From positions 4,183,685 to 4,247,684 of the forward strand of contig OW804097.1 in the NCBI GenBank assembly GCA_942159475.1: a stretch of 64,000 nucleotides of DNA, written 5' to 3'. Positions within the stretch are counted from its first letter, which is position 1; the number at the start of each line of letters is the position of its first letter. Below the pieces are notes generated by a model. The model was not told the origin of the DNA, made no database searches, and saw nothing but the letters and a program-made list of their open reading frames with translations. This DNA comes from Sthenelais limicola. Its lineage: Eukaryota; Annelida; Polychaeta; Phyllodocida; Sigalionidae. This document shows, piece after piece, positions 26,901 to 51,527 of the stretch. A program made the position numbers and the translations under genes.

Positions 26901-28723
26901 GTAAGTGTAAGATTGGCCTTTTTTTTAATATTTCCAAGTCGTAGTATAAAGAAAGAACTGTACTTAAGGTTGGAACTACTTGTGTAATTCAATGGCTCTT
27001 GTTAAAACTTTCTTTTGTATCCAACGCGCGACCTGCGGCCGCTTGTTGGATACAAAAGAAAGTTTTAACTCGAGCCATTGAATCACACTTGTAGTTCCAA
27101 CCTTGCGTACAGTTCTATCTAAATCCCCCATACAATCATTGATACTAAAAAAGAACTATAGGGCAGATATTCATGTCATATAAAAAAAAGAACTATAGGA
27201 TAAACAAGAAAATAAGAAAATATACTTCTGAAGGCGAATCGATTCTCTCCAAAGATTCTGCAAGAGCTTTCCATGATTCTTTCTCTTGGGCATTTTCTGC
27301 AAGCAGAGAACAGCAATAAATAAAAATAAATTCTCTGACTCTTTATCATACCATGATGAAGGTTCTCCCTGAAAAACCAAACTGTTGGAATCACAACGTC
27401 ATACCAACAACTGAATGATAAAAACGATTTCGCTAAAATTGCTGACTTTCTAGTTTTGGTGTTCTAGCAATTTTATACAACCTTTAGGATTTTATGCTCA
27501 TTAACAATATATAGTTATGCCCGCACTTTACAAAGAACTAATACTTATACATTCTAAACCCAACCTTAGCTCCTACACAAAACCCCTAGTCAACCCAAGT
27601 CAACACCCGCATAAGGCATACATGGGAAAAAGAGATCCAATTACCATGATCTGAAATGTACAACCTTCAAGTGTGCTTTCTGTACTAATTTAATCTTGGA
27701 AAATAAATATTTTATTATTATTATCATTACAAGTTAAACGGTTCTGAGATCTTCCCCTAGCCCCTTCAAAATCAGTCTTGGACTACATTTCTCCACACTG
27801 GAAAAACAGTTGTCAATGACGCAGAAAAGGAATGTGCTTAACTAATGAAATTACGTTATATTATTGCATCTGCGAGCCCGGCTGACAAACCATAAATCAT
27901 GATCTTTTATGTTCACTTAAAGCACCCAAACAAATAGTTAAACCCATCGTAGAGAAACATACCTTACATGCTTTTAGAGCTCTTTTTCTTCGCATTCCAA
28001 ATTTCTACCTCATGTTGATATATTTTATTGGGAAATAGCCACACCTCCCGGTTGTCCTAATCGACAAAGGCCTAATTTTACCTGGCGAAACTCTCAATTT
28101 CAATCTTACTGAAAATTCTGTGCTTTCTCAGATTTCTCAGCATCAAATGGATAGTTTTGTTTAGCGATGGAAGTAGTTCCCATATTAATATGCTGCATGG
28201 TGCCTGACAACTAATTATTTTTCATTGATATTTTATTATCAAAATAATTTGTTATCATTTAATAATTACAGGCTCTGTAGTTTGGGTTTAAAACAGATTT
28301 AGTTTCATGAATAGCTTTTCTAGTTATCCCTTTTTTACTAACTTATCATTATATATCATTATTTTCACTTTTTCACCTTCAGCTTAAGATTCTACTTTTA
28401 ATTTTTATCAAATATGATATAAAACTGCGGAAACTTAAGGGCACATTCTGGGACATTTGTGTGAATCAGCTAATGGAGCAATGCATAAATCAATGATTAC
28501 TAAATAAACTTGCCTTCGTCTAAGGACCACTGTCCAGTAACCTTTGATGCCACATTTACAACTTTGACATCAGCAAGGTTGGTGCTGTAGTGCTCTTCTG
28601 TAAACCTTTTACCAAGTAAAGAGTTTAACAACGAAGTTTTTCCAACAGAGCAGCGACCAAGAACGACAACTCTGGGCCGGCAGGTCTTCAAAGTTTCCTC
28701 TTGCAGGGCCTTTTGCATTGATC
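5763..28723 (-). CDS. Roc-COR GTPase with C-terminal CARD-like domain, ten joined exons
   Basis: Joining ten exons (28514-28723, 27226-27296, 26339-26431, 21941-22085, 20849-20967, 19491-20639, 8476-8503, 7531-7570, 6867-7077, 5763-5921) gives one uninterrupted frame with every splice phase matching: 739 residues from the ATG at 28718. Landmarks are the P-loop GRCSVGKTS (21-29), WDFAGQ (118-123), TKAD (203-206), COR (about 212-594, Cys-rich at its end) and a CARD-like six-helix region (about 635-725). Roc-COR proteins are GTP-switched dimers (LRRK2 and MFHAS1 relatives). CARD domains assemble caspase or inflammasome-type complexes, so an intracellular stress, immune or death role is likely. 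No LRR or kinase domain is seen. Whether the ATG at 28718 is the true start is open, because its context is weak and the exon has a clear acceptor 5 nt upstream. Confidence 0.85.
5922..6866 (-). other. Intron 9 of the Roc-COR-CARD model
   Basis: No coding signature. It contains tandem GGAGATCCCCGC repeats at about 6205-6245, an 18-bp duplication ATAGAATGGAACTCGCC at about 6568-6602 and the hairpin at 6612-6664. Confidence 0.5.
6612..6664. repeat. Perfect inverted repeat, 19-bp arms
   Basis: GATTCGTCCACATAAGCAC (6612-6630) is followed after a 15-bp loop by its exact reverse complement (6646-6664). It lies in an intron. It may be the centre of a foldback element or a structured intronic hairpin. 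Confidence 0.8.
6867..7077 (-). CDS. Roc-COR-CARD exon 9: N-terminal part of CARD-like domain
   Basis: Acceptor ACTTTCAG, phase 2 in. The frame contains LLLDFLIDHKPIIVENLK followed by STLAARLEANKAIDKATRSQ, which fits helices 1-4 of a CARD (compare the pattern: helix, HR.LLV..L, L...L, I......I). The GC-type donor AAG|GCGAGT, phase 0, joins exon 10 so that the helix continues without a break. Reading on past the donor gives a stop at 6819. Confidence 0.72.
7078..7530 (-). other. Intron 8 of the Roc-COR-CARD model, nothing else seen
   Basis: AT-rich sequence bounded by the GTAAGT donor at 7525-7530 and the TTTCAG acceptor at 7078-7083. No repeat or coding motif is recognised. Confidence 0.5.
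7531..7570 (-). CDS. Roc-COR-CARD exon 8: 40-nt basic linker exon
   Basis: Acceptor TATTCTAG, donor AAGT|GTAAGT, phase 1 in and phase 2 out. It encodes SSAHQKSKTKMK, a basic linker. The outgoing phase matches exon 9, whose acceptor leaves a single A to finish the Val codon. Confidence 0.65.
7755..7984. mobile_element. Foldback element with inverted ends
   Basis: GTCTCCACTGGCTG near 7758 pairs with CAGCCAGTGGAGAC ending at 7980, and the complementarity continues inward through GGTAAGCTCTATGG and its counterpart near 7945-7965. The left arm carries four tandem copies of a GGTAAGCTCTATG-like unit. There is a second, inner hairpin (CCTACATGG and CCATGTAGG). This looks like a foldback MITE in intron 7; the family is unknown. 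Confidence 0.6.
8414..8460. repeat. 45-bp motif, copy 1 (outer left of the gypsy element)
   Basis: The block around ATACTGTGTGTCCCCAGTA, continuing through CTACAAATAAAGGTA, recurs with about three changes at 17742-17788 in the same orientation. The two copies lie on either side of the gypsy ORFs. They might be remnants of LTR ends, but sequence outside the 45 bp does not match. Confidence 0.5.
8476..8503 (-). CDS. Roc-COR-CARD exon 7: 28-nt linker exon
   Basis: A strong acceptor (GGTATTTTGCAG) opens DKSVPPDCSG in phase 0. A GC-type donor CAG|GCAAGG ends it in phase 1, exactly the phases needed between exon 6 (leaves phase 0) and exon 8 (enters phase 1). It has no motif. It is inferred from splice sites and phase only, and other linker exons in the 11-kb intron cannot be excluded. 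Confidence 0.5.
8504..9956 (-). other. Region 3' of the gypsy pol ORF, unresolved
   Basis: GC-richer than the host DNA, like the retrotransposon next to it, so the upper part (about 8700-9956) is probably the 3' untranslated region and LTR of the element. I could not find a matching LTR copy at 17.3-18.2 kb, so the boundary is unknown. Confidence 0.4.
9957..14522 (-). CDS. pol: Gypsy pol polyprotein (protease, RT, RNase H, integrase)
   Basis: 1521 residues. An aspartic protease motif FLVDTGAT lies at about residue 89. Reverse transcriptase with the catalytic YVDDILIA is near 565. RNase H follows (LASDASSTALG, then YTDHAALLAL). After a long, poorly conserved spacer of about 250 residues comes integrase: an HHCC-type zinc finger (GHLGS through CDQCLRNK, about 1135-1165) and catalytic core elements MIDTIGPI, FSDNGSNF (about 1260) and QGQVERQ (about 1294), followed by a GPWxV-type C-terminal segment. 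No chromodomain or envelope frame is evident. The start ATG overlaps the end of gag by 14 nt in another frame, so expression needs a frameshift or reinitiation. Confidence 0.93.
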   Translation of the reverse strand: MMKNRTSLRRRRTAGKNRVGRLSRVDGKGRVIPSENSVDPAEGFYNVEGDSYDLVTLFQEENERVDRIRLPVKDGFVRATVGKFTNIPFLVDTGATCTCVSETLFKGIIAQIGDIPIRKFRKRIFMADNSSRQIDFKVRLRLTMYGRTFRHWFDVVPNLTCPLIMGVDFMRRFRAQINFNLDRNGVYAIRSDRNFKIPPSSEFYFTNSVVAPEDISDTVGVTDNAKRQVPVPYLVKRALVKPDAQSNKIRICVYNSSTAWYSVKKGSILGLYTVADEDDFAPMDHDKDTNDSNGKGSKELTKLENDNIVENNTDRLRSFSDSDTPTDYVSDLKSDRLDIVTGKSTEGEYFENRQYKLGINLDSQQRDDIIQFLEEREDVFVGKDMKIGSANGYEHRIDLKKNYEPKAMHPYRLNPKMKEVMRKLLKEQVDQGVLEKTDEIVEFASPAFLVQKATGPDAAKAWRIVADFRLLNSMIKDQARTFPSAEETIEAVGELEGKYFSKMDAQSGFHQIKIRDRDRKHTAISTCDGIYVYKCMPMGLKTSPKAFHAVIDNVLASVPSALPYVDDILIASKTWKLHMEHLTQVFDAFRRVNIKFKREKCFFGLDSVPFLGFKITSRGLQPNQDKVEAIETYPVPKTPKQVRAFNGLANYYRSFIPDFSNIMGPLYHLTKKSVDFKWDENCQKAFDKIKKTICTEVLLHYPDYKKPFELASDASSTALGACISQKDNEGNFRPVAFAGRALTPCESRYSTTDRELLGIKFALRKFRHYLLGNRCTIYTDHAALLALNSKRDLSGRMYRSLEEIMEYDYEIKFVAGKLNLVPDSLSRQDYPLSIKEQKERLDAPKKKGVTFNPIDVVKPFNEEDCCENYPILKIRNRPILKGWKGGTPYPRVKDALVRSVLVETLTDTTIPFIDINSGRQETVHHLASVSVCGDSCNEKVAVLEPVFQRFGRPAGKKESFYTINVAQTRESTKQKTAISEKLREDRKIAAKIRTPKFKTKTVNKSGIAKSHAQPSRAVAKRKALANEVPKVDRAFFGDLQEKLGMPLSQDEFIQAQWEDEFCSGILDYIGSKTLPKDAAKARQILLTHDQFFVNSGMLCRLPTGTKIRDAARLYQVVLPGTCIRPVLELLHDRPMAGHLGSVRLLSVVSARFYWPLMTKDIVDYVGTCDQCLRNKKSKHPYKLPMALRDPAPAPMSCLMIDTIGPITQSNAGRKYIHVVVDIYSRYCFAWATHAIDATTLKQEFFNNILCVVGVPNKLFSDNGSNFRSVTFTSFCKAFGIQQVFSSSWKPTTQGQVERQNQSLVQSIKMYVQKYQRDWDLYLAAVVFALNISDSNSLGHSPYLLVFGKNAVTPPEEAILNVDEEIRPITAHLLDIVNTQSKAALQAAISLERAQEKMKTRHDKGAKDHDIKLGDIVYVKINRLLQKHTSMKLQNAYTGPWLVVDIPSKFTVRLKQLSTGKMMGKSVNITQVKKVSAVENNRFMERLMEKFPEEQTQIEPVPTKRNPGRKPKLTISKAKRKR
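14509..15363 (-). CDS. gag: Gypsy gag
   Basis: 284 residues. The region from YKQYRSRNP through FKRKFLEKF and YDAEMDLLLAKSG matches the retrotransposon gag capsid pattern. A basic Lys/Phe-rich tail follows, with one CGNC knuckle-like pair near residue 214 but no complete CCHC finger. The ATG overlaps the stop codon of the preceding ORF as TAATG, and the end overlaps pol by 14 nt. Confidence 0.85.
   Translation of the reverse strand: MSAAQFLADYEEYTDSLGASSSLKAQGIKKFLKGKPLDFYKQYRSRNPTSGFETFKRKFLEKFKKLSYHERMMDYSSRRQGKDESLQEYDAEMDLLLAKSGVDDKTQMKFYITNLKPSLSKRVMADNPKTLDEAMEAANRHAVSDEAKEEEHQGSTTAVINLLKNMAAGETTDDEDKKVSFKKKSFKKPFTKKFIKRDSSVESVTPKAGTHMCGNCGTSSIPKKKWFKPKPKSQPSSGAETQTEAEESGHEGATTSEKRKQKLAKCELTPAPSRKKTNVNNDEE
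15363..17318 (-). CDS. Extra 5' ORF of the gypsy element, coiled-coil protein of unknown function
   Basis: 651 residues and no family recognised. The N-terminus is basic (TRKTRAPRKPRPG) and the first half is low complexity. A long heptad-like coiled coil (about residues 285-385, Glu/Arg/Leu-rich) follows, then a Pro/Arg-rich part, an acidic Ser/Asp stretch near 600 and a basic end. It could be a structural or nucleic-acid-binding accessory protein of the element, or the N-terminal part of a bipartite gag. Its stop is fused to the gag start (TAATG). It is intact in this copy. Confidence 0.75.
   Translation of the reverse strand: MSIMGTRKTRAPRKPRPGYMFSDVWKRLRSGGNYLAKVQLPRGQADEETEVQEQPLLHNQVRALRQGAQPSTSTAEGVQPSTSTPIAEKKVKTEGDEGALAVDILGTPTKVQYPELEELRHWQRDNELAGGFGAVGPLKEGPDDDDGDSEKSTLSGSKYKSVLTPGKHHTTGREQFREDPNRRGYESEGNQQIHLTVPQTKNNREGDRLDLSSFSDWSLSNVNGDGTLKVNRPARTYENIMASKEDSEGRGSEALGATGGVPEAKSAADRFRTFATMHLEGTGAVPQMDPQRKYIQELKRRDELILFEQKRAQDLECELQQFREDRIDLETQNNVVRQELDMCRYKSDELVHTCTMELDRMEIDHRQEVNELREVIRKLQIRNRLLEVQAVHQPTPKVPTMDRPTQTIQSELPWPQQFPCEDTGHHFDINDSYGSIYKTAMPPAPSIRGLNNRLDIPQNTPPPAYNRDLGREIPRPTAPLKLDGYQSVSRHSVYVPQQSIGRESSRDPFPVQGISPIRPRPTRVHVEEGPGYNTHGQIGSVGRQNNDYLVQRQWEMADPGDDEFKRGRVRHSRQMPMGAHRRSRQKKQMDDNSDEWEDDWLTDSSSSDDEKDSKNHLRMVSNRAVKQVTKDSASVAKTLAAPPRNFQRQRR
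17319..19490 (-). other. 5' region of the gypsy element and intron 6 of the host gene
   Basis: From 17319 to about 17740 is probably the 5' leader of the retrotransposon. The second 45-bp motif copy is at 17742-17788. A short inverted pair lies near 18765-18790 (TATCGCCAAC and GTTGGCAATA). No further coding exon was recognised. Confidence 0.4.
17742..17788. repeat. 45-bp motif, copy 2 (outer right of the gypsy element)
   Basis: Nearly identical to 8414-8460 (shared core ATACTGTGTGTCCCCAGTA), same orientation. If it marks the end of the 5' LTR, the next bases on the minus strand, AACTGGTGGAGAAGCC, would be a candidate primer-binding site. Confidence 0.5.
19491..20639 (-). CDS. Roc-COR-CARD exon 6: COR domain
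   Basis: 1149 nt, 383 codons, phase 0 to 0. The acceptor ACAAAG precedes LADRRLKEIK, which extends the frame beyond the first Met at 20576. The sequence has the COR layout: a helical N-lobe with PVRWLWIRDVL, the strand ELIFFNELETDLIITDPLWL, a second lobe (RVYFIPTDRKL to VAEVVCGGTSAISVGVRMP), and a Cys-rich end (LRLQCKCQPQ with later CKLC). COR dimerises Roc proteins. The donor is ATTAAG|GTATTC. If unspliced, the frame stops four codons later at 19479, so an alternative short form ending at 19479 is possible. Confidence 0.9.
20849..20967 (-). CDS. Roc-COR-CARD exon 5: Roc G4 motif
   Basis: 119 nt, acceptor CTTTCTAG, donor ATGAAG|GTAAAT, phase 1 in and phase 0 out. It encodes FLQFFLKSILVRSS and LPLLLVVATKADLIDMK. 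TKAD is the guanine-specifying G4 motif. Confidence 0.9.
20968..21940 (-). other. Intron 4 of the Roc-COR-CARD model
   Basis: AT-rich, no transposon signature or further exon recognised. Confidence 0.5.
21941..22085 (-). CDS. Roc-COR-CARD exon 4: Roc strand after switch II
   Basis: 145 nt, acceptor TTTGCAG, donor AAAAAG|GTACAT, phase 0 in and phase 1 out. It encodes AVFYTIHQLFITPKTLYILV, which directly continues the WDFAGQ motif as in other Roc domains (the usual pattern is AGQ, E/A, xFYxTHQxFxT, then LYxLV), followed by an acidic loop. Confidence 0.88.
23655..24605. repeat. Direct repeats of about 85 bp, 865 bp apart
   Basis: About 85 bp at 23655-23735 recur at 24520-24605 in the same orientation. 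Shared blocks include CAAGTTACCTTT and CATCCACCTGAGTAT, preceded in both by GAGA(T/C)ACCCAGGG. The intervening DNA has repeated GGGCCCC and TGGGGGTCC strings. The structure may be an inserted element with short terminal direct repeats. Confidence 0.55.
24609..24751. mobile_element. 143-bp foldback element
   Basis: The left end GCAAGAATAGCATAGTATCG pairs with the right end ...GCTATTCTTGC with one mismatch. The pairing continues toward the centre (CTATATTCTCC with GGAGAATATAG, TATGGCCGAAA with TTTCGGCCATA). The whole segment can fold into one hairpin. It is non-coding and probably a MITE. Confidence 0.75.
25700..26090 (-). pseudogene. LINE reverse transcriptase fragment (CR1/jockey-like)
   Basis: Two minus-strand frames, 25887-26081 and 25724-25912, together carry GMPQGTMLGPILFTIYIN and then QQYADDTVLFF, the RT palm motifs of non-LTR retrotransposons. 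The frames overlap and are shifted relative to each other, and both ends are missing. This is a dead 5'- and 3'-truncated copy in intron 3. Confidence 0.85.
26339..26431 (-). CDS. Roc-COR-CARD exon 3: Roc G3 motif
   Basis: A 93-nt, phase 0 to 0 exon with donor CAA|GTGAGT and acceptor ATAAG. It encodes RPNVYIQFWDFAGQ, the DxxG (G3, switch II) motif in the form typical of Roc domains. No long ORF marks it; it is recognised from the motif and the splice sites. Confidence 0.88.
26744..26880. repeat. Foldback sequence next to exon 3
   Basis: GCGTGTGGCC at the left pairs with GGCCACACG at the right end. Inside, GATTGGTC pairs with GACCAATC around TGACGTCATCG. It may be a MITE. The CCAAT-like and CRE-like strings are a consequence of the palindrome and are not good evidence of a promoter. 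Confidence 0.5.
26955..27115. repeat. Large inverted repeat, 71-bp arms, 19-bp loop
   Basis: Positions 26955-27025 and 27045-27115 are near-perfect reverse complements (GTTGGATACAAAAGAAAGTT in the right arm matches the left). Only a few mismatches, such as GGCTCTTGTT against AACTCGAGCC, are present. The loop is GC-rich (CGCGCGACCTGCGGCCGCTT). It is non-coding and located in intron 2. Confidence 0.85.
27226..27296 (-). CDS. Roc-COR-CARD exon 2: insert between switch I and G3
   Basis: This 71-nt exon lies between acceptor TGCTTGCAG and donor TCAGAA|GTATAT. It enters in phase 1 and leaves in phase 0, matching both neighbours. It encodes a charged helix-like stretch (NAQEKESWKALAESLER). No known motif is present; the assignment rests on the frame and on the position between the P-loop and the WDFAGQ exon. 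Confidence 0.75.
27297..28513 (-). other. Intron 1 of the Roc-COR-CARD model
   Basis: Bounded by the GC donor and the TTGCAG acceptor. An (ATT)n-like run is present near 27710. Nothing else is recognised. Confidence 0.5.
28514..28723 (-). CDS. Roc-COR-CARD exon 1 of model: Roc P-loop
   Basis: The exon follows an acceptor CCCTTAG and reads in phase 1 (GA completes a codon). It encodes VVVLGRCSVGKTSLLNSLLG, a textbook P-loop (G1) of the Roc family, followed by the switch I region. The donor is AAG|GCAAGT, a GC-type donor; using it removes an in-frame read-through to a stop and joins cleanly to the next exon. An ATG lies 5 nt into the exon, with T at -3, a poor Kozak context. Translation may therefore begin in upstream exons. 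Confidence 0.88.
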
Positions 28724-29784
28724 CTAAGGGTAGATAGACAACCTCATGAGTATTTGCTTTTAGAATACTTTCGAGAATATAGCTATTTAGGCTCTACTTT
28801 GAAAGCTGCAGTATGGTGATGCAGTTTGGTTGATCCAAACTGCACACATGATGAATACAGCTTCTATCATTACATGTGACACAATGACGCAATTTGGTTG
28901 GTGCAGAGTAGGCCTGACTTAAAAATAATGTTGTCTATAGCTGTCAACACATTGTAGTGTATTGAGCCTCATTAAACTAAAGTTAAGGTAAACAAGTAAC
29001 ATCAACATTTTTACAATTTTACCAATAACCGTTACTGTTTTTATAATATTATCATTTTAAATAAACGATTAATTTTGCTCATAATAACAAGCCCAATAAC
29101 TGAACACATTTTTATGGATGAGTCATTTTGTGTGTCTCACTTGAGAGTGTGACAACATCGCCATCTTTGACGTCATACAGTGACTGCGCATGGGCGACCT
29201 AAACAGCAACAAGATGATGTGCATGACAACCCCTGCGACGATTAATTTCTTTCATTAAAACTGTTGCACATGAACAAATTTGGGGATATTTTTTGGGGGG
29301 ATACTTTTTTTAAGTGAGTAAATAGTTGCAACTTTTTCTAGAACCCTGCGACGCCATGTCATTGAGCATGCGCAGACCGATCCGCAACACTTGGATCTAA
29401 AGGTAAGGAAGGGGACGGCGGGAGGCTGGGAAGGATCTAATCTTACACATGCACCATGAATCACCTTGGCATGATTTGGGGGCAGAGGTCAGTCCAATAA
29501 GAGAAGTGTTAGGGCAGCAGAATATTTCTTGGGAATGAATTGGTGTTTTGTTTGGTGAAGTGTTTTGCTGAGTATAAATAAAGCTGGAGGAAAAGCCTTC
29601 AGTCACTCTTGCCTGGGCCAAACATGACAAACTTCAATGAGCTCTGACTTCTTCTCTACCAACTCAATACAACACCAAACCTATGGGCAAATGCACCTAG
29701 ATTCCTAAAAAATCAGACATGGACCCTAACATCTGAAGATGGAGGGGCAATAATGTTTGAAATTTGTGCCTTAATGCCCATAGT
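28724..29784 (-). other. Sequence between P-loop exon and the 222-bp array
   Basis: No exon is convincing. A minus-strand frame at 29466-29630 could join exon 1 in phase through CAAG|GTGATT, but it has no ATG. Another minus-strand piece near 29137-29180 has ATGs and a GTGAGA donor, but its phase does not match exon 1. Confidence 0.4.
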
Positions 29785-31265
29785 ACTGAATAGACTATGC
29801 CGGGTAGGATCTATGACCCTAATCATGAATCAATAACAAATCCATAATACAGAAACAATTATTATATTTCTGTAGACTGTCACTCTGCAGAGAAGTATAA
29901 TGACAAACACAAATATTACTTACGTGCTGTTTATGGATCCACATGATGAGTAAGAAGCAATGAAATAAAGAAATAAGAGTAGGTCTGTTAAAACAATACT
30001 TGTTACCATGAGTAGACTATATTGCTGTTTGGTACTATAAACCTGAGCATTCATCAATACTAAATCTATGAAACAGAAACAATTATTATATTTATTATCA
30101 TATATCTGTAGATATCACTATGGAGAAAAGTATTAATGAAAAACATAAATATTACTTACAGACTGGTTATGGATCCACATGATGAGTAAGAAGCAATGAA
30201 ATAAAGAAATAGGAGTAGGTCTGTTAAACAATACTTATTAGCCTGAATAGACTGTACCAGTTTGGTACTATGAACCTGAGCATGAATCAATAATAAATCA
30301 ATAATAGAGAAACAGTTATTATATTTCTGTAGACTGTCACTGTGCAGATAAGTATAATAACAAACACTAATATTACTTACAGACTGTTTATGGATCCACA
30401 TGATGAGTTAGAAGTAATGAAATAAAGAAATAAGAGTAGGTCTGTTAAAACAAGACTCCTTAGCATGAATACATTATTGCTGTTTGGTACTATGAACCTC
30501 AGCATGAATCAATAATAAATCCATAATACAGAAACAATTATTATATTTCTATAGACTGTCACTGTGCAGAGAAGTATATTAACAAACACAAATATTACTT
30601 ACGTGCTGTTTATGGATCCACATGATGAGTAAGAAGCAATGAAATAAAGAAATAGGAGTAGGTCTATTAAAACAATATTTATTAGCCTGAATGGACTGTA
30701 CCTGTTTGGTACTATGAACCTCAGCATGAATCAATAATAAATCCATAATACAGAAACAATTATTATATTTCTGTAGACTGTCACTCTGCAGAGAAGTATT
30801 AATGACAGACACAAATATTACTTACGCCCTGTTTATGGATCCACATGATGGGTTGGTAGCAATGAAATAAAGAAATAAGAGTAGGTCTGTTAAAACAGGA
30901 CTTATTCGCCTGAATAGACTATACCAGTTTGGTACTATGACCCTGAGCATAAATAAATAATGAATCAATTATACAGAAACAATTATTATATTTCTGTAGA
31001 CTGTCACTGTGCAGAGAAGTATTAATAACAAACACAAATATTACTTACATGCTGTTCATGGATTCACATGATGAGTAAGAAGCAATGAAATAAAGAAATA
31101 GGAGTAGGTCTGTTAAACAATACTTATTAGCCTGAATAGACTGTACCAGTTTGGTACTATGAACCTGAGCATGAATCAATAATACAGAAACAATTATTAT
31201 ATTTCTATAGACTGTCACTGTGCAGATAAGTATAATAACAAACACTAATATTACTTACAGACTGT

Positions 31266-31931
31266 TTATGGATCCACATGATGAGTTAGAAGCAATGAAA
31301 TGAAGAAATAAGAGTAGGTCTGTTAAAACAAGACTTATTAGCATGAATACATTAATGCTGTTTGGTACTATGACATTGAGCATGAATCAATACTAAATCC
31401 ATAATACAGAAACAATTATTATATTTCTGTAGACTGTCACTGTGCAGAGAAGTATATTAACAAACACAAATATTACTTACACGCTGTTTATGGATCCACA
31501 TGATGAGTAAGAAGCAATGAAATAAAGAAATAAGAGTAGGTCTGTTAAAACAATACTTATTAGCCTGAATGGACTGTACCTGTTTGCTACTATGAACCTC
31601 AGCATGAATCAATAATAAATCCATAATACAGAAACAATTATTATATTTCTATAGACTGTCACTGTGCAGAGAAATATATTAACAAACACAAATATTACTT
31701 ACGTGCTGTTTATGGATCCACATGATGAGTAAGAAGCAATGAAATAAAGAAATAAGAGTAGGTCTGTTAAACAATATTTATTAGCCTGAATGGACTGTAC
31801 CTGTTTGGTACTATGAACCTGAGCATGAATCAATAATAAATCAATAATAGAGAAACAGTTATTATATTTCTGTAGACTGTCACTCTGCAGAGAAGTATTA
31901 ATAACATACACAAATATTACTTACGCCCTGT
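31266..31931. repeat. 666-bp three-unit block, copy 1
   Basis: Three units whose sequence recurs without visible change at 31932-32597. Triplet order on the minus strand, in ascending coordinates, after the shared start is CGT, CAC, GGC in both. Such exact multi-unit duplication indicates recent unequal exchange. Confidence 0.85.
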
Positions 31932-32597
31932 TTATGGATCCACATGATGAGTTAGAAGCAATGAAATGAAGAAATAAGAGTAGGTCTGTTAAAACAAGAC
32001 TTATTAGCATGAATACATTAATGCTGTTTGGTACTATGACATTGAGCATGAATCAATACTAAATCCATAATACAGAAACAATTATTATATTTCTGTAGAC
32101 TGTCACTGTGCAGAGAAGTATATTAACAAACACAAATATTACTTACACGCTGTTTATGGATCCACATGATGAGTAAGAAGCAATGAAATAAAGAAATAAG
32201 AGTAGGTCTGTTAAAACAATACTTATTAGCCTGAATGGACTGTACCTGTTTGCTACTATGAACCTCAGCATGAATCAATAATAAATCCATAATACAGAAA
32301 CAATTATTATATTTCTATAGACTGTCACTGTGCAGAGAAATATATTAACAAACACAAATATTACTTACGTGCTGTTTATGGATCCACATGATGAGTAAGA
32401 AGCAATGAAATAAAGAAATAAGAGTAGGTCTGTTAAACAATATTTATTAGCCTGAATGGACTGTACCTGTTTGGTACTATGAACCTGAGCATGAATCAAT
32501 AATAAATCAATAATAGAGAAACAGTTATTATATTTCTGTAGACTGTCACTCTGCAGAGAAGTATTAATAACATACACAAATATTACTTACGCCCTGT
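31932..32597. repeat. 666-bp three-unit block, copy 2
   Basis: Head-to-tail duplicate of 31266-31931. I found no difference between them in the stretches compared. Confidence 0.85.
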
Positions 32598-35500
32598 TTA
32601 TGGATCCACATGATGAGTAAGAAGCAATGAAATAAAGAAATAAGAGTAGGTCTGTTAAAACAGGACTTATTCGCCTGAATAGACTATACCAGTTTGGTAC
32701 TATGACCCTGAGCATAAATAAATAATAAATCACTTATACAGAAACAATTATTATATTTCTGTAGACTGTCACGGTGCAGAGAAGTATTAATAACAAACAC
32801 AAATATTACTTACAGGCTGTTTATGGATCCAAATGATGAGTTAGAAGCAATGAAATAAAGAAATAAGAGTAGGTCTGTTAAAACAAGACTTATTAGCCTG
32901 AATAGATTAATGCTGTTTGGTACTATGAACCTCAGCATGAATCAATAATAAATCAACAAATCAGAAACAATTATTATATTTCTGCAGAGGGTCACTCTGC
33001 AGAGAAGTATTCATGACAGACACAAATATCACTTACCCCCTGTTTATGGATCCACATGATGAGTTAGAAGCAATGAAATAAAGAAAAAGGAGTAGGTCTG
33101 TTAAAACAAGACTTATTAGCCTGAATGGACTGTACCTGTTTGCTACTATGAACCTCACCATGAATCAATAATAAATCCATAATACAGAAACAATTATTAT
33201 ATTTCTGTAGACTGTCACTGTGTTGGGAAGTATAATAACAAACACAAATATTACTTACACCCTGTTTATGGATCCACATGATGAGTTAGAAGCAATGAAA
33301 TAAAGAAATAAGAGTAGGTCTGTTAAAACAAGACTTATTAGCCTGAATAGATTAATGCTGTTTGGTACTATGAACCTCAGCATGAATCAATAATAAATCA
33401 ACAAATCAGAAACAATTATTATATTTCTGCAGAGGGTCACTCTGCAGAGAAGTATTCATGACAGACACAAATATCACTTGTGCCCTGTTTATGGATCCAC
33501 ATGATGAGTTAGAAGCAATGAAATAAAGAAAAAGGAGAAGGTCTGTTAAAACAAGACTTATTAGCCTGAATGGACTGTACCTGTTTGCTACTATGAACCT
33601 CAGCATGAATCAATAATAAATCCATAATACATAAACAATTATTATATTTCTGTAGACTGTCACTGTGTAGGGAAGTATAATAACAAACACAAATATTACT
33701 TACAGACTGTTTATGGATCCACATGATGAGTTAGAAGCAATGAAATAAAGAAATAAGAGTAGGTCTGTTAAACAATACTTATTAGCCTGAATAGACTGTA
33801 CCAGTTTGGTACTATGAACCTGAGCATGAATCAATAATAAATCAATAATAGAGAAACAGTTATTATATTTCTGTAGACTGTCACTGTGCAGATAAGTATA
33901 ATAACAAACACTAATATTACTTACACCCTGTTTATGGATCCACATGATGAGTTAGAAGCAATGAAATTAAGAAATAAGAGTAGGTCTGTTAAACAATACT
34001 TATTAGCCTGAATGGACTGTACCTGTTTGGTACTATGAACCTCAGCATGAATCAATAATAAATCCATAATACAGAAACAATTATTATATTTCTGTAGACT
34101 GTCACTCTGCAGAGAAGTATTAATGACAGACACAAATATTACTTACGCCCTGTTTATGGATCCACATGATGGGTTGGTAGCAATGAAATAAAGAAATAAG
34201 AGTAGGTCTGTTAAAACAGGACTTATTCGCCTGAATAGACTATACCAGTTTGGTACTATGACCCTGAGCATGAATAAATAATGAATCAATTATACAGAAA
34301 CAATTATTATATTTCTGTAGACTGTCACGGTGCAGAGAAGTATTAATAACAAACACAAATATTACTTACAGGCTGTTTATGGATCCAAATGATGAGTTAG
34401 AAGCAATGAAATAAAGAAATAAGAGTAGGTCTGTTAAAACAAGACTTATTAGCCTGAATAGATTAATGCTGTTTGGTACTATGAACCTCAGCATGAATCA
34501 ATAATAAATCAACAAATCAGAAACAATTATTATATTTCTGCAGAGGGTCACTCTGCAGAGAAGTATTCATGACAGACACAAATATCACTTACCCCCTGTT
34601 TATGGATCCACATGATGAGTTAGAAGCAATGAAATAAAGAAAAAGGAGTAGGTCTGTTAAAACAAGACTTATTAGCCTGAATGGACTGTACCTGTTTGCT
34701 ACTATGAACCTCAGCATGAATCAATAATAAATCCATAATACATAAACAATTATTATATTTCTGTAGACTGTCACTGTGTAGGGAAGAATATTAACAAACA
34801 CAAATATTACTTACATGCTGTTTATGGATCCACATGATGAGTAAGAAGCAATGAAATAAAGAAATAAGAGTAGGTCTGTTAAAACAAGACTTATTAGCCT
34901 GAATAGATTAATGCTGTTTGGTACTATGAACCTCAGCATGAATCAATAATAAATCAACAAATCAGAAACAATTATTATATTTCTGCAGAGGGTCACTCTG
35001 CAGAGAAGTATTCATGACAGACACAAATCTCACTTACGCCCTGTTTATGGATCCACATGATGAGTTAGAAGCAATGAAATAAAGAAAAAGGAGTAGGTCT
35101 GTTAAAACAAGACTTATTAGCCTGAATGGACTGTACCTGTTTGCTACTATGAACCTCAGCATGAATCAATAATAAATCCATAATACATAAACAATTATTA
35201 TATTTCTGTAGACTGTCACTGTGTAGGGAAGTATATTAACAAACACAAATATTACTTACATGCTGTTTATGGATCCACATGATGAGTAAGAAGCAATGAA
35301 ATAAAGAAATAAGAGTAGGTCTGTTAAAACAGGACTTATTCGCCTGAATAGACTATACCAGTTTGGTACTATGACCCTGAGCATGAATAAATAATGAATC
35401 AATTATACAGAAACAGTTATTATATTTCTGTAGACTGTCACTGTGCAGATAAGTATAATAACAAACACTAATATTACTTACAGACTGTTTATGGATCCAC

Positions 35501-36571
35501 ATGATGAGTTAGAAGCAATGAAATGAAGAAATAAGAGTAGGTCTGTTAAAACAAGACTCCTTAGCATGAATACATTATTGCTGTTTGGTACTATGACATT
35601 GAGCATGAATCAATACTAAATCCATAATACAGAAACAATTATTATATTTCTGTAGACTGTCACTGTGCAGAGAAGTATATTAACAAACACAAATATTACT
35701 TACATGCTGTTTATGGATCCACATGATGAGTAAGAAGCAATGAAATAAAGAAATGAGAGTAGGTCTGTTAAAACAATACTTATTAGCCTGAATGGACTGT
35801 ACCTGTTTGGTACTATGAACCTCAGCATGAATCAATAATAAATCCATAATACAGAAACAATTATTATATTTCTGTAGATATCACTATGGAGAAAAGTATT
35901 AATGAAAAACATAAATATTACTTACAGTCTGGTTATGGATCCACATGATGAGTAAGAAGCAATGAAATAAAGAAATAGGAGTAGGTCTGTTAAACAATAC
36001 TTATTAGCCTGAATAGACTGTACCAGTTTGGTACTATGAACCTGAGCATGAATCAATAATAAATCAATAATAGAGAAACAGTTATTATATTTTTGTAGAC
36101 TGTCATGGTGCAGAGAAATATAATAACAAACACTCATATTACTTACAGACTGTTTATGGATCCACATGATGAGTTAGAAGCAATGAAATTAAGAAATAAG
36201 AGTAGGTATGTTAAAACAAGACTTATTAGCCTGAATAGATTAATGATGTTTGGTACTATGAACCTCAGCGTGAATCAAAACTAAATCAAAAATACAAAAA
36301 CAATTATTATATTTCTCTAGACTGTCACTGTGCAGAGAAATATAATAACAAACACTAATATTACCTACCGACTGTTTATGGATCCACATGATGAGTTAGA
36401 AGCAATGAAATAAAGAAATAAGAGTAGGTCTGTTAAAACAAGACTTATTAACCTGAATGGACCATGCCAGGAATATTCTACTACCCTAAACATGAATGAA
36501 CAATGAATCCAAAATACAGAAACAATTATTATATTTCTGTAGACACTCACTGTGCAGAGAAGTATTAATGG

Positions 36572-37552
36572 CAATTAGAATCGATTTGGTGAGATTCTGG
36601 GAGGATGTTTTTCTCTATAGAATCCCGCCTACGACTTCCATCTCGAGGGATCAGTGGTCGGCCGGGTTCTATAGTACCCTGTCATTTCAGGCGATTCAGC
36701 CAAGCAGTTGCCATATTCGAACGTTGATTTTAAAAAAAACGGGACCTTGTATAAAAACAAAATCTTCAGGACATCCTAATCAATATGATTTCTTATGACA
36801 TCTGAAATCTTGTTGTCTTCCCATCATTCCTTCATAGAGAAATGTTAGTAGGAATGTTGTGAGGATGGAAAAAAAAGCTGCCCGGGCGAGCCTCAAACCC
36901 CTAACCCTTGGCACTGAAGGCGATTGCTCTGCCACTGAGCTATGCATGTAGGTTAGGAGAGGATGACAGAATTTGGCTATTTATGTACGGCCCAACAAGT
37001 ATAGAATGAAAAAGAAAGCTGACAGACCTGGACGAGGTTTGAACCCTGGTTGTGTTTGTATACCAGCACTTACTGGAGGACATTTCATAATTTGTTTCCA
37101 TCGTTATTTTAACATTTTATCATTAGAAACTAGAAGATAACATGTCTGACATTGAAATCAACATCAAACAAGTTGATGTTGCCAGCAAATAAACATATTT
37201 AAAATTAATAACTGAGCATCTGTGGAACTGACATGCAGTTCCAAACACAACCAATTGTAAGTGGCGCTTGGTGGGAGCAAGGCGTGATGGGTGTGTTTGG
37301 GTTTAGTCCATTCTGTTGGTGATAGAGGGGTGGCCGTTGTCCCGCAGAGAGCTAAAAAAAAGAGCTAAACAAGGACAATTGGATGTTTTTTGGCCGTAAT
37401 AAAAAAGGTTTGTCTATCTTTTTTTCCGTCCCCTGAAGTGAATCTCATCAAATCTAGGTAGCCTGGGGAAGTTCTCGGGCAAGCCCTCAAACTTTTCCCC
37501 AGGCTACAATACCCGCGAGCAGAAAAAACCAAGGGAATTATTTCTATAACAA
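36572..37552. mobile_element. Insertion in the array with tRNA-like promoter boxes (SINE-like)
   Basis: About 0.98 kb of non-array DNA splits a unit. On the minus strand at about 36880-36950 there is a tRNA-like A box (TAGCTCAGTGGCAGAGC) and, 3' of it, a diverged B box (GGGTTTGAGGCT). A second B-box-like string, GAGGTTTGAACCCTGG, lies near 37033 on the plus strand. Several elements may be involved; boundaries are approximate. Confidence 0.5.
36880..36950 (-). repeat. tRNA-derived (SINE or tRNA pseudogene) sequence
   Basis: The A box is intact, but the anticodon loop lacks the usual T before the anticodon and the B box is altered, so this is not a functional tRNA. It is most likely the head of a SINE or a tRNA pseudogene. 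Confidence 0.55.
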
Positions 37553-37921
37553 AAATATTACTTACATTCTGTTTAGGGATCCACATGATGAGTTAGAAGC
37601 AATGAAATAAAGAAAAAATAATAGTCTGTTAAAACAATATGTATTAGCCTTTGCTGTTTGGTACTATGAACCTGAGCATGAATCAATAATAAATCCATAA
37701 TACAGAAACAATTATTATATTTCTGTAGACTGTCACTGTGCAGAGAAGTATAATAACACACACTAATATTACTTACCGACTGTTTATTGATCCACATGAC
37801 GAGTAAGAAGCAATGAAATAAAAAAATAAGAGTAGTTCTGTTAAAACAAGACTTATTAACCTGAATAGACCATGCCAGCTAGGTTCTGTGACCCAAAGCA
37901 TGAATGAATAATGAATCACAT

Positions 37922-39553
37922 TTTTAAAGAAATTTTATTGAGGACATTTCCATTCGGACATAGTAATCTCATGCACACTCAATGGCAAAAAAGAATTATT
38001 ATACATCAAGATTAATTATCATTTAATTTTTTAAAGATCTTTGTAAATATATAGAGAATATACCGTACAGGATGACATTCGTAAGCAATGATTTAAAGTT
38101 ATCAAACCTTAACCTCAATAAGGTCGCATGACGACACATATCATTAGAAAGAAGTTAACCGTTTGATTTATCAACCTGATTTTTCAAGTAATTATGTACA
38201 ACATGAATTTTTCTTTTAATTTTTTCTCCAATAATCATAGTGATAGTATCGCCCTTATAGAGTGAATAAAAACAAGTATTTCAACGTACAGAGAGACAGA
38301 ATTATAGAGGTAAAGGTCATTGTGTCCACCACAGCTCATCTCCTTTTAGAAAGATTTTCATGGCTTTCCATTCCATATTTTGCACATGTGGAGGAAGTTT
38401 GTTCCATTCATGTTGACCATTAAAATGTGGGCTTCTCATTTTTTTTTTTTTTTAAAGATTTTATTTATACTGGGGATCGAAGGTCCCCTCACGGGGTTTT
38501 TCGCCTGTCCCAGTCTTACATAGGGAGACTGAGCAGGGAAAGTGTACATAGGTAAACATTTATATAGATATATATATATATATACATGGTTCTCGGGCAT
38601 AAAGTATAGATTTACTAGGTTGCACTTTGCCACTCAGATCATTTAGTGATGGAGTGTTAGTGGTAATTATAGTTAGAGAGAGATTACGAGAAAAATTGGG
38701 CTTTGCCACTCAGATCATTGATGATGGAGTGTTAGCGAATGTATTTATTGTTTATATAGGTAAAAAAGAAGGAACAGAGGCTTGAGATTTGTTGAAAAGT
38801 TTCGAGCCTTATCTAATATACATTATGATACAGTTTAGCCATGTTGGAGGCTAATTGGTACGTCAGGTTATGTACCAATTAGACTTCTTCTGTATTGGGT
38901 CTGGCTGTGTTTAATACAATGCCTTCATACAATCTTGTTGGCCTTTCTCCTACATCACAAAGTGTATTCTTTTTGTTACTCATGACCCGTAATAGAGAGA
39001 TTTTCAATCGTTTGGTCAACTTTTCAATATTACACAACCAACTGAGGGTAACAATGTCCCTTCGATCATTTATGCAAATTAATCTCACTGCCCTATTCAA
39101 TATACGTTGTAATTTCTGCTTGATGTCACATGTTGTCATATCAAGAAATAGAAGACCATATTAAAGAACAGATAGAATGTGACTTTTTACGATCGTTTTT
39201 GTCATGTCTGTGGTTAAATATTTGCGAATTCTTTGCAATTGAACAAGTTTAAAAGTGGCAGAACATTTCAGCCTAGTAAAGTGACAGTTCATAGATAAGC
39301 TAGAATTGACTCTAAAACCAAGATAATTAACAATATTAGTCCAAGAGATCTTATGACCATTTAGGAATATGCTACCAAGAGCTGCAATGTTAATCCTTTT
39401 TACCTTGTTTTTCGTGCCTAAAAGTTGGACCTGGCATTTCTTTTCATTTAGTTTTAACTTGTTTGCAGTCATCCAAATATTAATAATATTTGTAGCCTCC
39501 TGAGATATTCGTACACAATCGTTTAAATCATCACTCGTTACACTTACAATCAT
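37922..39553 (-). mobile_element. 5'-truncated LINE inserted in the array
   Basis: About 1.63 kb interrupts a unit. Minus-strand frames at 39161-39550 (NIINIWMTANKLKLNEKKCQ, VNYLGFRVNSSLS) and 38879-39139 (LNRAVRLICINDRR) are the C-terminal part of a CR1/jockey-type reverse transcriptase, separated by a stop. The 3' region (low coordinates) has a T run at about 38440 and (AT)n at 38570. The insertion point has AATCA on both sides, a possible target duplication. Confidence 0.75.
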
Positions 39554-41121
39554 GAATAGAGAAACAATTATTATATTTCTGTAGACTGTCACTCCTCAGA
39601 GAATTATTAATGACAAACACAAATATTACTTACATGCTGTTTATGGATCCACATGATGAGTTAGAAGCAATGAAATAAAGAAATAAGAGTAGGTCTGTTA
39701 AAACAAGACTCATTAGCCTGAATAGACTGCTGCTGGTTGGTACTATGAACCTCAGCATGAATCCATAATAAATCCATAATACAGAAACAATTATTATATT
39801 TCTGTAGACTGTCACTCTGCAGAGAAGTATTATTGACCAACACAAACATTACATACCTTCTGTTTATGGATCCACATGATGAGTTAAAAGCAATGAAATA
39901 AAGAAATAAGAGTAGGTCTGTTAAAACAAGACTTATTAGCAAGGTAATGCTGTTTTGTGCTATGAACCTGAGCATGAATCAATACTAAATCAATTATTTT
40001 TCTGTAGACTGTCACTATGCAGAGAAGTATTTATGACGGACACAAATATTACTTACGTCCTGTTTATGGATCCACATGATGAGTTAGAAGCAATGAAAAA
40101 AAGGAATAAGAGTAGGTCTGTTAAAACAAGACTTATTAGCCTGATTAGACTGTACCTGTTAGGTACTATTAACCTGAGCATGAATGAATACTAAGTCAAT
40201 TATACAAAAACAATTATTATATTTCTGTAGACTGTCACTGTGCAAAGAAGTATTAATAACAATTACAATTATTACTTACGTGCTGTTTATGTATCCACAT
40301 GATGATTTAGAAGCAATGAAATAGAGAAATAAGAGTAACATAGTTCAAACAAGACTTATTAGCGTGGATTGACCATGCCAGGTAGGCTCTATGAACCTAA
40401 GCATGAATGAATAATGAATTCAAAATACAGAAACAATTATCATATTTCAGTTGACTGTCACTCTGCAGAGAAGTATAATTGAAAAACACAAATATTACTC
40501 ACTGACTGTTTATGGATCCACATGATGAGTTAGAAGCATTGAAATAAAGAGATAAGAGTAGTTCTGTTAAAACAAAACTTATTTGCCTGAATAGAGTATA
40601 TCAGTTTGGCACTAAGAACATCAGCATGAATAAAAAATAAATCCATAATACAGAAACAATTATTATATTTCTATAGACTGTCACTGTGCAGAGAAGTATA
40701 ATAACAAATGCAAATATTACTTACTGACTATTTATGGATCCACATGATGAGTTAGAAGCAATGAAATAAAGAAATAAGAGTAGGTCTGTTAAAACAAGAC
40801 TTATTAGCCTGAATAGACTAATGCTGTTTGGTACTAAGAACCTCAGCGTGAATCAAAACTAAATCCATAATGCAGAAACAAATATTCTTTTTCTGAAGAC
40901 TGTTACTGTGCAGAGAAGTTTTAATGACAAACACAAATATTACTTACCGACTGTTTATGGATCCACATGATGAGTTAGAAGCAATGGAATAAAGAAATAA
41001 GAGTAGGTCTGTTAAAACAAGACTTATTAGCCTGAATAGCTAATTCATAGTTTGGTACTATGAACCTGAGCATGACTGAATACTAAGTCAATTATACAAA
41101 AACAGTTATTATATTTCTTTA

Positions 41122-41540
41122 GTCCATTTTGGATCAGATTTTGGGTGTTTTCGTGTTCAATTGTGGTACAACAGGCCGTGACTGTACTAACGGTCTATTT
41201 TTTCGTTTCCTATGTTCCCATTGGCTAACTGTCCAAAATCAGACCCAGTCTATCAACCGTTTTCCTCGATGCCATTTGGCCTCCTGCAAGGCACACCCCT
41301 GGCCTGCCGCCGCACTCCACACCACCCTTGCGTGACCCTCACTGAAACCTGTGAGAGCCTTGAAATGCACTAAAACAGAAACCCTCAGGAATCACAGGTT
41401 CACTGGCCACAAATGTTGATGAGAGAAGTAGTGTGAAGTGCTGAATGTTAAGTTACTGAGGTGATCTGTTTAAACAAGTTTCTGGTCGTTTTTGGGCCTG
41501 TGACTGAACCATGATTTGAAGCGTGAAATAATAAAATAAG
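41122..41540. other. Short insertion within the array
   Basis: About 0.42 kb of GC-richer sequence without coding signature breaks the unit before the last two array units. Identity unknown. Confidence 0.5.
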
Positions 41541-42148
41541 TGTAATGAATCCAAAATACAGAAACAATTATTATATTTCTGTAGACTGTCACTGTGAAGA
41601 GAAAAATTAATTACAAACACAAATATTACGTACCTTCTGTTTATGGATCCACATGATGAAAGCAATGAAATAATAGTAGATCTGTTAAAACAGGACTTAT
41701 TAGCCTTACAGACTGTACCAGATTTTTACTATGACCCTGAGCATGAATCAATACTAAATCCATAATACAGAAACAATTATTATATTTCTGTAGACTGAAA
41801 AGTATTATCTACAAACACAAATATTACTTACCATCTGTTTATGTATCCACATGATGAGTTAGAGGCAATGAAATAAAGAAATAAGAGTAGTTCTGTTAAA
41901 ACTTTTTAGCCTTACAGATTGATGATTGATTGATTTATTGGAAAACAAATGCCAATTGACAAACCTAAAAGCCTATATATGTAGAAATATCAACTTTCTC
42001 AATTTATTTCAACACCTTTAGGACAACCCTAAGATCAAAATCAATCATAGACCATACTTTTTTTATGTATACAAACTCCAACAATGTTCAATCGTCAGGG
42101 CTCATCTGACCATTTTCCTACCTATATACTTATTAAAAAAGAAAGAAC

Positions 42149-42608: not shown

Positions 42609-43261
42609 ATACTCCCCCTCTTTTTTAAAGATTTACATCCAAATTGAAAAATCATTTAAGGGATAACACCCAAACAGTAAGTAGCATTACTTAGAATAAA
42701 ATTCACCACTTTCCTGTATAAAAAGAGAATTAGCAGTGCAAACCTGGTTCAGCATGAATGATATAATGTAAGTTGACAAGCAGGAGCATTTCTGTGTCCT
42801 CTCTACATACAAAACAATTTCAGGTTGCAACATCTCTAATGAATAGGCTGAAAGTGGAGACAAAATGTGATCCACCTCTTGGAGAAACAGTTCAAAGTGT
42901 GAGGATTAGCCTTCTTCCAACCACAATATATATATCAAGAGTAAATATTAGGTAAATAACATCTACTCAACACTATTCTGGAACAGATTTGTTGGAGAAA
43001 AATTTTCTCAAGTCAGTGGGCAGTCCAGTATCATTGTATCAGCATCATGACATAGTCGGAGTCCATTAATCTGTGTCCGTGGCATCAGGTCATCAGGTCA
43101 ATAGGTCCTGGGGATCCAAAGTGGAGGTGACTGGAACATCCAGGTAGGTGTGGGCATGGGATTCCTCATCAAAACTGGCATCCACTCCTGACATCATGGG
43201 CATCCTGGCACATCATGGGCATCCCTGAAATGGCGTCATAGTGGCTGGGATCTTTGAATCC

Positions 43262-43466
43262 CCTTGCTCACTACTTCTTGGACTTGTTAGTCCAAGTTCT
43301 ACTTGTCCACAGAAAGTCAGCTAGGCATCATCTTGGACTTGTTCTTGGAGGCTTGACCTCACTCACTATTTCTTGGACTTGTTAATCCAAGTTCTACTTG
43401 TCCGCAGAAGGTCAGCTAGACATTTTCTTGGACTTGTTCTTGGAGGCTTGACCTCACTCACTATTT
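43262..43466. repeat. Tandem duplication of about 102 bp inside the LTR element
   Basis: The segment starting CTTGCTCACTACTTCTTGG, which runs through CTTGACCTCACTCACTA, is repeated once head to tail with a few changes. Confidence 0.65.
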
Positions 43467-49640: not shown

Positions 49641-50147
49641 ACCAGGGACAGACTGGAAGAGCTATGACTACCATAAAAGGGAGCTGTACAATTTTCTGGC
49701 GTAAACTGTTATCATCACATATTAAAATGTTTTGGTACTGATTCCGGAATCAATAAAATACAAGAGTGAAACTGTCTCTTGTTATGTTATGGTGCATAAT
49801 AATGTAGATCAACACAATAATGTGGAAATAGTCTAAAGATCAAATCGTTTCTGATTTTTGCAAACAAATGATTTGTTCTGTTGTGTCATTTGGACTGTAA
49901 CTTAAAGCATCAGAAATATCCTTATTTCAGGGCAGAAACATCTTAAAATGCTCCTTCTGATTCAGGCATGCTTCTCCCTTCAATGTCCATGTCCTAATAT
50001 CACCTTAGGAAAAAATTTAGCCAAGAAATTGCAGTGCCCCTTGCAGAATATAACCATTTAAAACGTCTCCTTGTGTTTAATTAGTTTTTAAAGCTTCCTA
50101 ATTTCTTTAAAAAGCATCAGACGTTGGTCCACTAATATGCCACTTCT
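49641..50147. other. Non-coding, nothing recognised
   Basis: Between the LINE and the DIRS-type element. It may contain the leader of the latter. Confidence 0.4.
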
Positions 50148-51505: not shown

Positions 51506-51527
51506 AATTACTACATGTATCTCTCGG

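Follow-up and report, generated by a model that had tools for sequence, protein, structure and literature searches.

Within a 64,000-nt window of the genome of the polychaete Sthenelais limicola (assembly GCA_942159475.1, contig OW804097.1, positions 4,183,685 to 4,247,684 of the forward strand; positions below are counted within this window), the minus strand carries a tandem repeat array directly upstream of a gene for a Roc-COR GTPase. We regard it as somewhat probable that this array consists of 41 successive single-codon exons in phase 0, separated by copies of the same intron of about 219 nt, and that it forms the 5' end of the Roc-COR gene. A more tentative extension, possible rather than probable, is that the N-terminus of the Roc-COR protein is encoded one codon per exon and assembled by stepwise splicing, which would make the array a length-variable, fast-diversifying protein-coding satellite.

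29785..41925, minus strand: repeat array; 41 units of about 222 bp each, read as a 3-nt exon plus an intron of about 219 nt; three larger introns hold insertions

The 41 units were located between 29915 and about 41850 by a fuzzy search. A profile search (nhmmer) of the whole 64 kb with the unit core returned 42 rows: 41 correspond to these cores, and the other (36575-36537) is half of an array intron, separated by an insertion. The extent and copy number reported in the first-pass annotation are thus confirmed, and all 41 full copies in the window sit in one tandem array. A longer profile adds partial pieces just at the array edges and insertion points (29853-29786, 36574-36506 and 41124-41087), as well as 16 weak matches on the opposite strand within the array (E-values of 0.002-0.96). 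Tandem repeat analysis yields periods of 222 and 445 bp. The minus-strand unit consensus reads ...CCATAAACAG NNN GTAAGTAATATTTGTG..., with few changes among units. The array introns measure 195-233 nt in 37 out of 40 cases, the remaining three (683, 1194 and 1854 nt) being insertion-bearing, and 19 of the 40 unit spacings are not divisible by three. The longest of these introns contains an insertion at 37920-39560 with a frame that weakly resembles a reverse transcriptase (RVT_1, 4.7e-4, below the cutoff), and two further introns hold shorter insertions. No match to the exact unit pattern was found in viral contigs. The units are relatives of each other, and counts out of 41 do not represent 41 independent cases.

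Each unit displays an AG, exactly three nucleotides and then a donor (41/41), as the first-pass annotation had described. The acceptor AG is retained in all units and the donor GT in 40 of them, the unit at 33473 having AC instead. The donor hexamer is GTAAGT in 36 units and matches it at five of six bases in four more. The region preceding the triplet has the appearance of an acceptor zone. In 37 units the nearest earlier AG precedes the acceptor AG by 58 nt (72, 72, 57 and 45 nt in the other four), never by less than 45 nt, while a comparable AG-free stretch precedes only 27 of the 369 other AGs in the same units. A branch motif (yTnAy) occurs 18-30 nt before the acceptor AG in 38 units. Its commonest forms are CTAAC (GCTTCTAACT, 20/41) and CTTAC (GCTTCTTACT, 14/41), which differ only at the base that is N in the consensus. 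The triplet itself matches the U1-complementary CAG at zero, one or two positions in 17, 12 and 12 units, respectively; exonic bases beside the donor may be free to vary because the intronic part of the donor is strong. At the sequence level, the array segments thus combine the GT...AG borders with the donor, branch and acceptor consensus of U2-type introns, and each segment between two triplets looks like a complete spliceosomal intron, which we infer to be spliced. The distance from acceptor AG to donor, 3 nt in all 41 units, falls well within the range of micro-exons (up to 30 nt).

The triplet takes 15 values over the 41 units, and its three columns have the highest diversity of all columns scored (0.743, 0.698 and 0.676), in agreement with the hypervariability that was originally claimed. 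The mean column diversity is 0.062 in a conserved block (90 columns) and 0.167 outside it (146 columns; the alignment spans slightly more than one period, and some unit columns are counted twice in this class). The conserved flanks are considerably longer than the 8-10 bases initially proposed: the block covers about 90 bases, starting at the TTTTAACAG motif (58 nt before the acceptor) and ending about 20 nt past the donor. On a tree built from the introns only, which takes no account of exchange between units, the triplet columns changed 17, 15 and 14 times, compared to means of 1.02 for block columns (maximum 7) and 2.43 for the rest (maximum 10). Where introns diverge by 0.8%, triplet sites differ by 15.6% (15 non-independent pairs). 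Judged by the left flank, the nearest unit carries an identical triplet in 14.5 cases out of 41, and judged by the right flank in 14.7, with shuffled means of 2.8 and 3.2, and six unit pairs are identical over 162 core columns (gaps ignored), five of which also share the triplet. Inheritance of triplets together with both flanks, along with these identical pairs, indicates that 'codon + intron' units were duplicated as the array expanded, with codons changing later.

Read in minus-strand order from 41832 to 29924, the triplets (ATG AAG TCG TCA TCA CAC GAC AAG ... TCT TCT CAC) translate without a stop into MKSSSHDKHSNSSTHSHGHGPGGSGGGPGHRGHRSHGHSSH. The following exons, all predicted, are derived from the fuzzy unit search and the order of the triplets on the minus strand.

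41832..41834, minus: exon 1, ATG (Met), most upstream unit
41634..41636, minus: single-codon exon 2, AAG (K)
40948..40950, minus: single-codon exon 3, TCG (S)
40725..40727, minus: single-codon exon 4, TCA (S)
40503..40505, minus: single-codon exon 5, TCA (S)
40280..40282, minus: single-codon exon 6, CAC (H)
40057..40059, minus: single-codon exon 7, GAC (D)
39857..39859, minus: single-codon exon 8, AAG (K)
39634..39636, minus: single-codon exon 9, CAT (H)
37777..37779, minus: single-codon exon 10, TCG (S)
37566..37568, minus: single-codon exon 11, AAT (N)
36369..36371, minus: single-codon exon 12, TCG (S)
36147..36149, minus: single-codon exon 13, TCT (S)
35926..35928, minus: single-codon exon 14, ACT (T)
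35704..35706, minus: single-codon exon 15, CAT (H)
35482..35484, minus: single-codon exon 16, TCT (S)
35260..35262, minus: single-codon exon 17, CAT (H)
35038..35040, minus: single-codon exon 18, GGC (G)
34815..34817, minus: single-codon exon 19, CAT (H)
34593..34595, minus: single-codon exon 20, GGG (G)
34370..34372, minus: single-codon exon 21, CCT (P)
34147..34149, minus: single-codon exon 22, GGC (G)
33925..33927, minus: single-codon exon 23, GGT (G)
33704..33706, minus: single-codon exon 24, TCT (S)
33482..33484, minus: single-codon exon 25, GGC (G); donor AC, not GT; probably skipped, in frame
33259..33261, minus: single-codon exon 26, GGT (G)
33037..33039, minus: single-codon exon 27, GGG (G)
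32814..32816, minus: single-codon exon 28, CCT (P)
32591..32593, minus: single-codon exon 29, GGC (G)
32369..32371, minus: single-codon exon 30, CAC (H)
32147..32149, minus: single-codon exon 31, CGT (R)
31925..31927, minus: single-codon exon 32, GGC (G)
31703..31705, minus: single-codon exon 33, CAC (H)
31481..31483, minus: single-codon exon 34, CGT (R)
31259..31261, minus: single-codon exon 35, TCT (S)
31049..31051, minus: single-codon exon 36, CAT (H)
30826..30828, minus: single-codon exon 37, GGC (G)
30603..30605, minus: single-codon exon 38, CAC (H)
30381..30383, minus: single-codon exon 39, TCT (S)
30160..30162, minus: single-codon exon 40, TCT (S)
29924..29926, minus: single-codon exon 41, CAC (H), last of the array

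ATG appears just once among the 41 triplets, and it does so in the first unit, an outcome with a chance of 1 in 41 from order alone. Ser, Gly and His account for 31 of the 41 residues, and the 40 residues that follow Met include no A, V, L, I, F, W, Y, C or M. Taken in plus-strand order, the triplets include two stops; frame +1 has a stop as its first codon and is open thereafter. In 4000 simulations on the intron tree, for which mutation rates and event numbers (20/18/17) were chosen by hand from general knowledge, 1.5% of runs had ATG first, 0.025% reached at least 31 S/H/G residues and 2.8% had no more than one T at position 2, while a string devoid of hydrophobic residues, a property picked after the peptide was seen, never arose. 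An ATG start, no stop in 41 triplets and no hydrophobic residue after Met together make the triplets look like one consecutive reading frame. Both the ATG at the most upstream triplet and the ordered open frame had been overlooked in the first-pass annotation. Its idea of 3-nt micro-exons stands, given the donor, the AG-free acceptor zone and the constant length of three nucleotides. Its proposal of alternative cassettes that add stray codons, or triplets of the 5' untranslated region (5'UTR), appears less likely than a single consecutive frame that starts with ATG. The inferred product would be MKSSSHDKHSNSSTHSHGHGPGGSGGGPGHRGHRSHGHSSH as a Ser/His/Gly-rich N-terminus of the Roc-COR GTPase.

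The gene that would receive this N-terminus is an animal-type Roc-COR GTPase gene, and the first-pass annotation had correctly placed the array directly upstream of, and on the same strand as, its Roc P-loop exon. Six predicted exons join with matching phases into one frame. In the assembled exons, Pfam identifies Roc (1.6e-14) followed by COR-A (6.4e-9), which assigns the gene to the Roc-COR family, and matches in the PDB include LRRK2.

28514..28793, minus strand: Roc P-loop exon; alternative in-frame starts at 28793 (phase 0, weak acceptor) and 28723 (stronger acceptor, with 1 nt supplied by the preceding exon); apparent GC donor
27226..27296, minus strand: predicted exon 2 of the Roc-COR gene, by phase-matched exon joining
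26339..26431, minus strand: predicted exon 3 (WDFAGQ, Roc), by exon joining and Pfam/PDB matches
21941..22085, minus strand: predicted exon 4 (Roc), by exon joining and Pfam/PDB matches
20849..20967, minus strand: predicted exon 5 of the Roc-COR gene, by exon joining
19491..20639, minus strand: predicted exon 6 (COR-A domain), by exon joining and Pfam
29141..29198, minus strand: candidate bridging exon, 58 nt, VAHAQSLYDVKDGDVVTLS; phase 0 in, phase 1 out; unproven
29465..29612, minus strand: alternative candidate bridging exon, 148 nt; phase 0 in, phase 1 out; unproven

The P-loop exon seems to end at 28514 in a GC donor (GAAG/GCAAGT), with phases that fit the next exon, and predicted exon 5 contains what we take to be the motif ATKAD. 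Among prokaryote genome contigs, 20 pattern matches to the COR exon were retrieved, none of which was confirmed as a relative. The array exons are in phase 0, as is the open frame of the Roc exon, which extends back to the AG at 28793; a direct in-frame join is thus available, and an in-frame link from the array to the Roc exon is plausible. If this link is wrong, the array could be a 5'UTR or part of another transcript. The acceptor score at 28793 (2.8) exceeds that of predicted exon 3 (0.6). Between the array and the Roc exon, the interval 29090-29430 has an observed/expected CpG ratio of 0.5-0.86 (window mean 0.44, 95th percentile 0.90), with CCCTGCGACG repeated around about 110 bp and with motifs that are presumably NRF1-like and CRE-like. 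A short GC-rich loop flanked by an inverted repeat of about 25 bp (GTTAAAACTTTCTTTTGTATCCAA) is visible by eye at 27000-27075, in a Roc-COR intron.

Several observations weigh against this interpretation, at the level of splicing, of coding and of the link to the Roc exon. The donor GT is lost in one of the 41 units. The branch motif is weak evidence, as 204 of the 369 other AGs (55%) have one as well. With splice matrices set by hand from general knowledge, as for all acceptor scores given here, the micro-exon acceptors score low (median 3.4). The absence of stops in 41 triplets is unremarkable by itself (P 0.39 in the simulations), and frame +2 is also stop-free, giving a hydrophobic, Trp-rich string. 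By codon usage, frame +2 of the array scores highest (0.45), followed by frame +1 (-0.10) and the proposed frame (-0.29). Codon position 3 shows 14 changes versus 17 and 15 at positions 1 and 2, and lacks the faster change that is usual at this position in conserved coding sequence. As position 3, which is often synonymous here (TCT/TCG/TCA, GGC/GGT/GGG, CAC/CAT), also lies far above the intron rate and all three positions change alike, selection on amino acids alone is an insufficient explanation; the excess of triplet change would call for local mutability, for introns being homogenized while codons are retained, or for both. Regarding the link, the acceptor at 28793 is weak (another AG lies 3 nt before it and there is no branch motif). 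The 24 codons between 28793 and 28723 score -0.14 per codon for coding potential, lower than 94% of coding windows, and 65% of open intron windows score at least as high. The stronger acceptor at 28723 (7.3) requires a bridging exon for the proposed frame and, when joined directly, fits frame +2. As a bridging exon of equal bar is present in seven out of 32 control windows, the bridging candidates are no proof. Finally, 29090-29430 could be the promoter of a Roc gene that starts below the array.

Some of these observations would suit an alternative in which the triplets are indeed 3-nt exons, either untranslated (5'UTR) or optional cassettes of which a few are used at a time, with translation starting at the ATG in the Roc exon (MQKALQEE...). 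We consider this unlikely. The splice-signal evidence fits it equally well, a direct join at 28723 would leave Roc out of frame with the proposed codon string, an ATG occurs just downstream of this acceptor, and equal change at the three codon positions agrees with an absence of coding constraint. It leaves unexplained, however, why ATG stands at the first unit, why hydrophobic residues are missing (0/4000 simulations) and why a non-coding triplet would have about four times the diversity of the remaining intron. An unspliced tandem satellite, in which the splice-like motifs are coincidental or relics and the triplet is a mutational hotspot or some other variable site, is less credible again. 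The periods of 222 and 445 bp and the recent block duplications are typical of satellites, and the triplet changes alike at its three positions even between near-identical units. Yet the conserved block coincides with the donor and acceptor regions, AG is kept in every unit behind an AG-free zone that few other AGs possess (41/41 versus 27/369), the triplet has a constant length and the array adjoins a gene on the same strand. Moreover, we know of no mutational hotspot confined to three bases.

The remaining alternatives fare worse. The TTTTAACAG motif, whose AG lies exactly 58 nt upstream in 37 units, could mark the start of a real exon of about 61 nt in an array of alternative exons, with the triplet as its 3' end. 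That AG has a slightly better acceptor score than the one adjoining the triplet (median 3.9 versus 3.4), and the whole 61 nt is strongly conserved. This reading is nevertheless improbable, as 61 is not divisible by three, the preceding AG is located elsewhere in four units (72, 72, 57 and 45 nt), two of the three consensus frames contain a stop (by inspection) and the restriction of diversity to the last three bases is left unexplained. Copies of a mobile, introner-like intron or of a site-specific element, with the triplets as 3-bp target duplications or a variable crossover core, are very improbable. The segments do start donor-like (GTAAGT in 36/41), end in AG and resemble introns, and target duplications of 3 bp occur in some elements. 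The two triplets that border one intron copy are identical in just 2 of 40 cases, however, so the target duplication expected of introners is not seen. No terminal inverted repeats were seen by eye, the full copies in the window are all confined to the one tandem array and triplets are inherited with both flanks. Scarcely credible are tandem small RNA genes, such as those of a spliced-leader RNA with the leader ending at the triplet: they would match the tandem layout and the strong donor of most units, but no match in the window attains the gathering score of an Rfam family and the folding energy of three tested pieces is ordinary (z of -0.38, -0.28 and 1.04). Two further identities were rejected. 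A hypervariable anticodon was considered and no tRNA was detected by ARAGORN, and exons starting with ATG (MWIHKQX) were weighed and set aside. On the plus strand, a sequence overlapping the donor (TAATATTAC) resembles what we take to be a geminivirus-like nonanucleotide.

Under the favored reading of consecutive single-codon exons, the array would have originated by repeated tandem duplication of one 'codon + intron' unit. An exon of 3 nt is too short for the factors bound to the acceptor and those bound to the donor to sit side by side, and recognition by intron definition is therefore expected. The introns would be removed one after another, probably stepwise, with each splice depositing one codon and bringing the next GTAAGT donor beside the growing exon, in a ratchet that is reminiscent of recursive splicing. 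Skipping of any unit would preserve the frame, so that many length isoforms may exist, and the unit at 33473, with AC for GT, is probably skipped. The triplets may vary because they are the sole protein-coding part of the unit, while the introns are constrained by splicing and homogenized by unit duplication and exchange. The higher rate of change in the codons would additionally require local mutability or selection for change.

Bicycle exons of aphids are longer than 3 nt, and products of the micro-exon gene (MEG) type carry a signal peptide. At the predicted start of the array product (MKSSSHDKHSNSS), no hydrophobic stretch is present by inspection (no signal-peptide program was involved), which sets it apart from secreted MEG products. 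The MEGs of schistosomes have 10-20 short exons, the majority of 15 bp, with a minimum of 6 bp according to the text or 3 according to the abstract (PMC10526429). They share with the array a series of consecutive, very short exons, mostly with lengths in multiples of three, between longer introns, a structure that holds for the 41 array exons and not for the six Roc-COR exons (71 to 1149 nt). In contrast to MEGs, each array exon is a single codon, 41 occur in a row, the introns are mutual copies, and the host gene encodes a Roc-COR GTPase with a hydrophilic start instead of a secreted protein. Similarly, the aphid bicycle and megacycle genes contain long runs of small exons that are nearly all in one phase, with over 100 micro-exons in megacycle; bicycle-type exons are in phase 2 (PMC9168663), whereas the array exons measure 3 nt, are in phase 0 and alternate with repeated introns. 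Exons of one codon are described as an isolated 3-nt exon (micro-Ex8) in Drosophila hth (PMC7392893), within three consecutive micro-exons of 3, 18 and 22 bp in RPS24 (PMC11162997), and in Ncam and TnT (troponin T) (PMC8042270), but each of these is described there with one 3-nt exon, versus 41 in the array. Plants even have micro-exons of 1 nt in APC11 and VPS55, the latter with conserved GTRAGT donors (PMC8831610). Like the array, VPS55 combines nearly no exon with a conserved donor (GTAAGT in 36/41 here), although the plant micro-exons are single. In recursive splicing in Drosophila, a ratchet point leaves 0 nt and needs a cryptic exon behind it (PMC8605326). Such ratchet points and RS-exons resemble the array in having an acceptor and a donor that nearly touch, and in the stepwise removal that we propose; however, AG abuts GT in a ratchet point, while the array has 3 nt between the two in 41/41 units and thus does not belong to this class. 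Intron gain by tandem duplication, in which the duplicated segment supplies the splice signals of the new intron (PMC4974935), is a single event, as opposed to the array of some 40 units that each add a codon. An array of single-codon exons did not turn up in the literature searched (titles and abstract openings, with subscription papers and preprints outside the scope).

The surroundings of the array and gene contain several other repeats and element-like frames. Downstream of the COR exon, the minus strand carries frames resembling a long terminal repeat retrotransposon (9957-17318), in which Pfam identifies reverse transcriptase, RNase H and integrase at 9957-14525 and two upstream frames look gag-like by eye. 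Upstream of the array, a tandem repeat of 95 bp occurs in 2.4 copies (43267-43492). Open frames on the plus strand at 50136-52277 resemble reverse transcriptase, presumably of the DIRS type; they have no Pfam match, with two frames searched at an E-value of 0.1 and the third at 0.001. At 60479-60766 lies an irregular tandem repeat whose units measure about 30-34 bp. For three minus-strand open reading frames above 41925 that were compared with Pfam (42690-42905, 45299-45682 and 48936-49661), the only result was a sub-threshold KCTD match (E-value of 0.055), and four small open reading frames below 7200 have no Pfam match.

If the array is used as proposed, it would represent an extreme test of the spliceosome on exons that are too short for acceptor and donor factors to bind side by side, and a whole protein segment would be built from single-codon exons. 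As exons of 3 nt are hard to place, standard annotation and read mapping would probably miss such an array. Duplication of a 'codon + intron' unit would moreover offer a slippage-free route to a longer low-complexity region, in which the codons diversify while the introns stay uniform.

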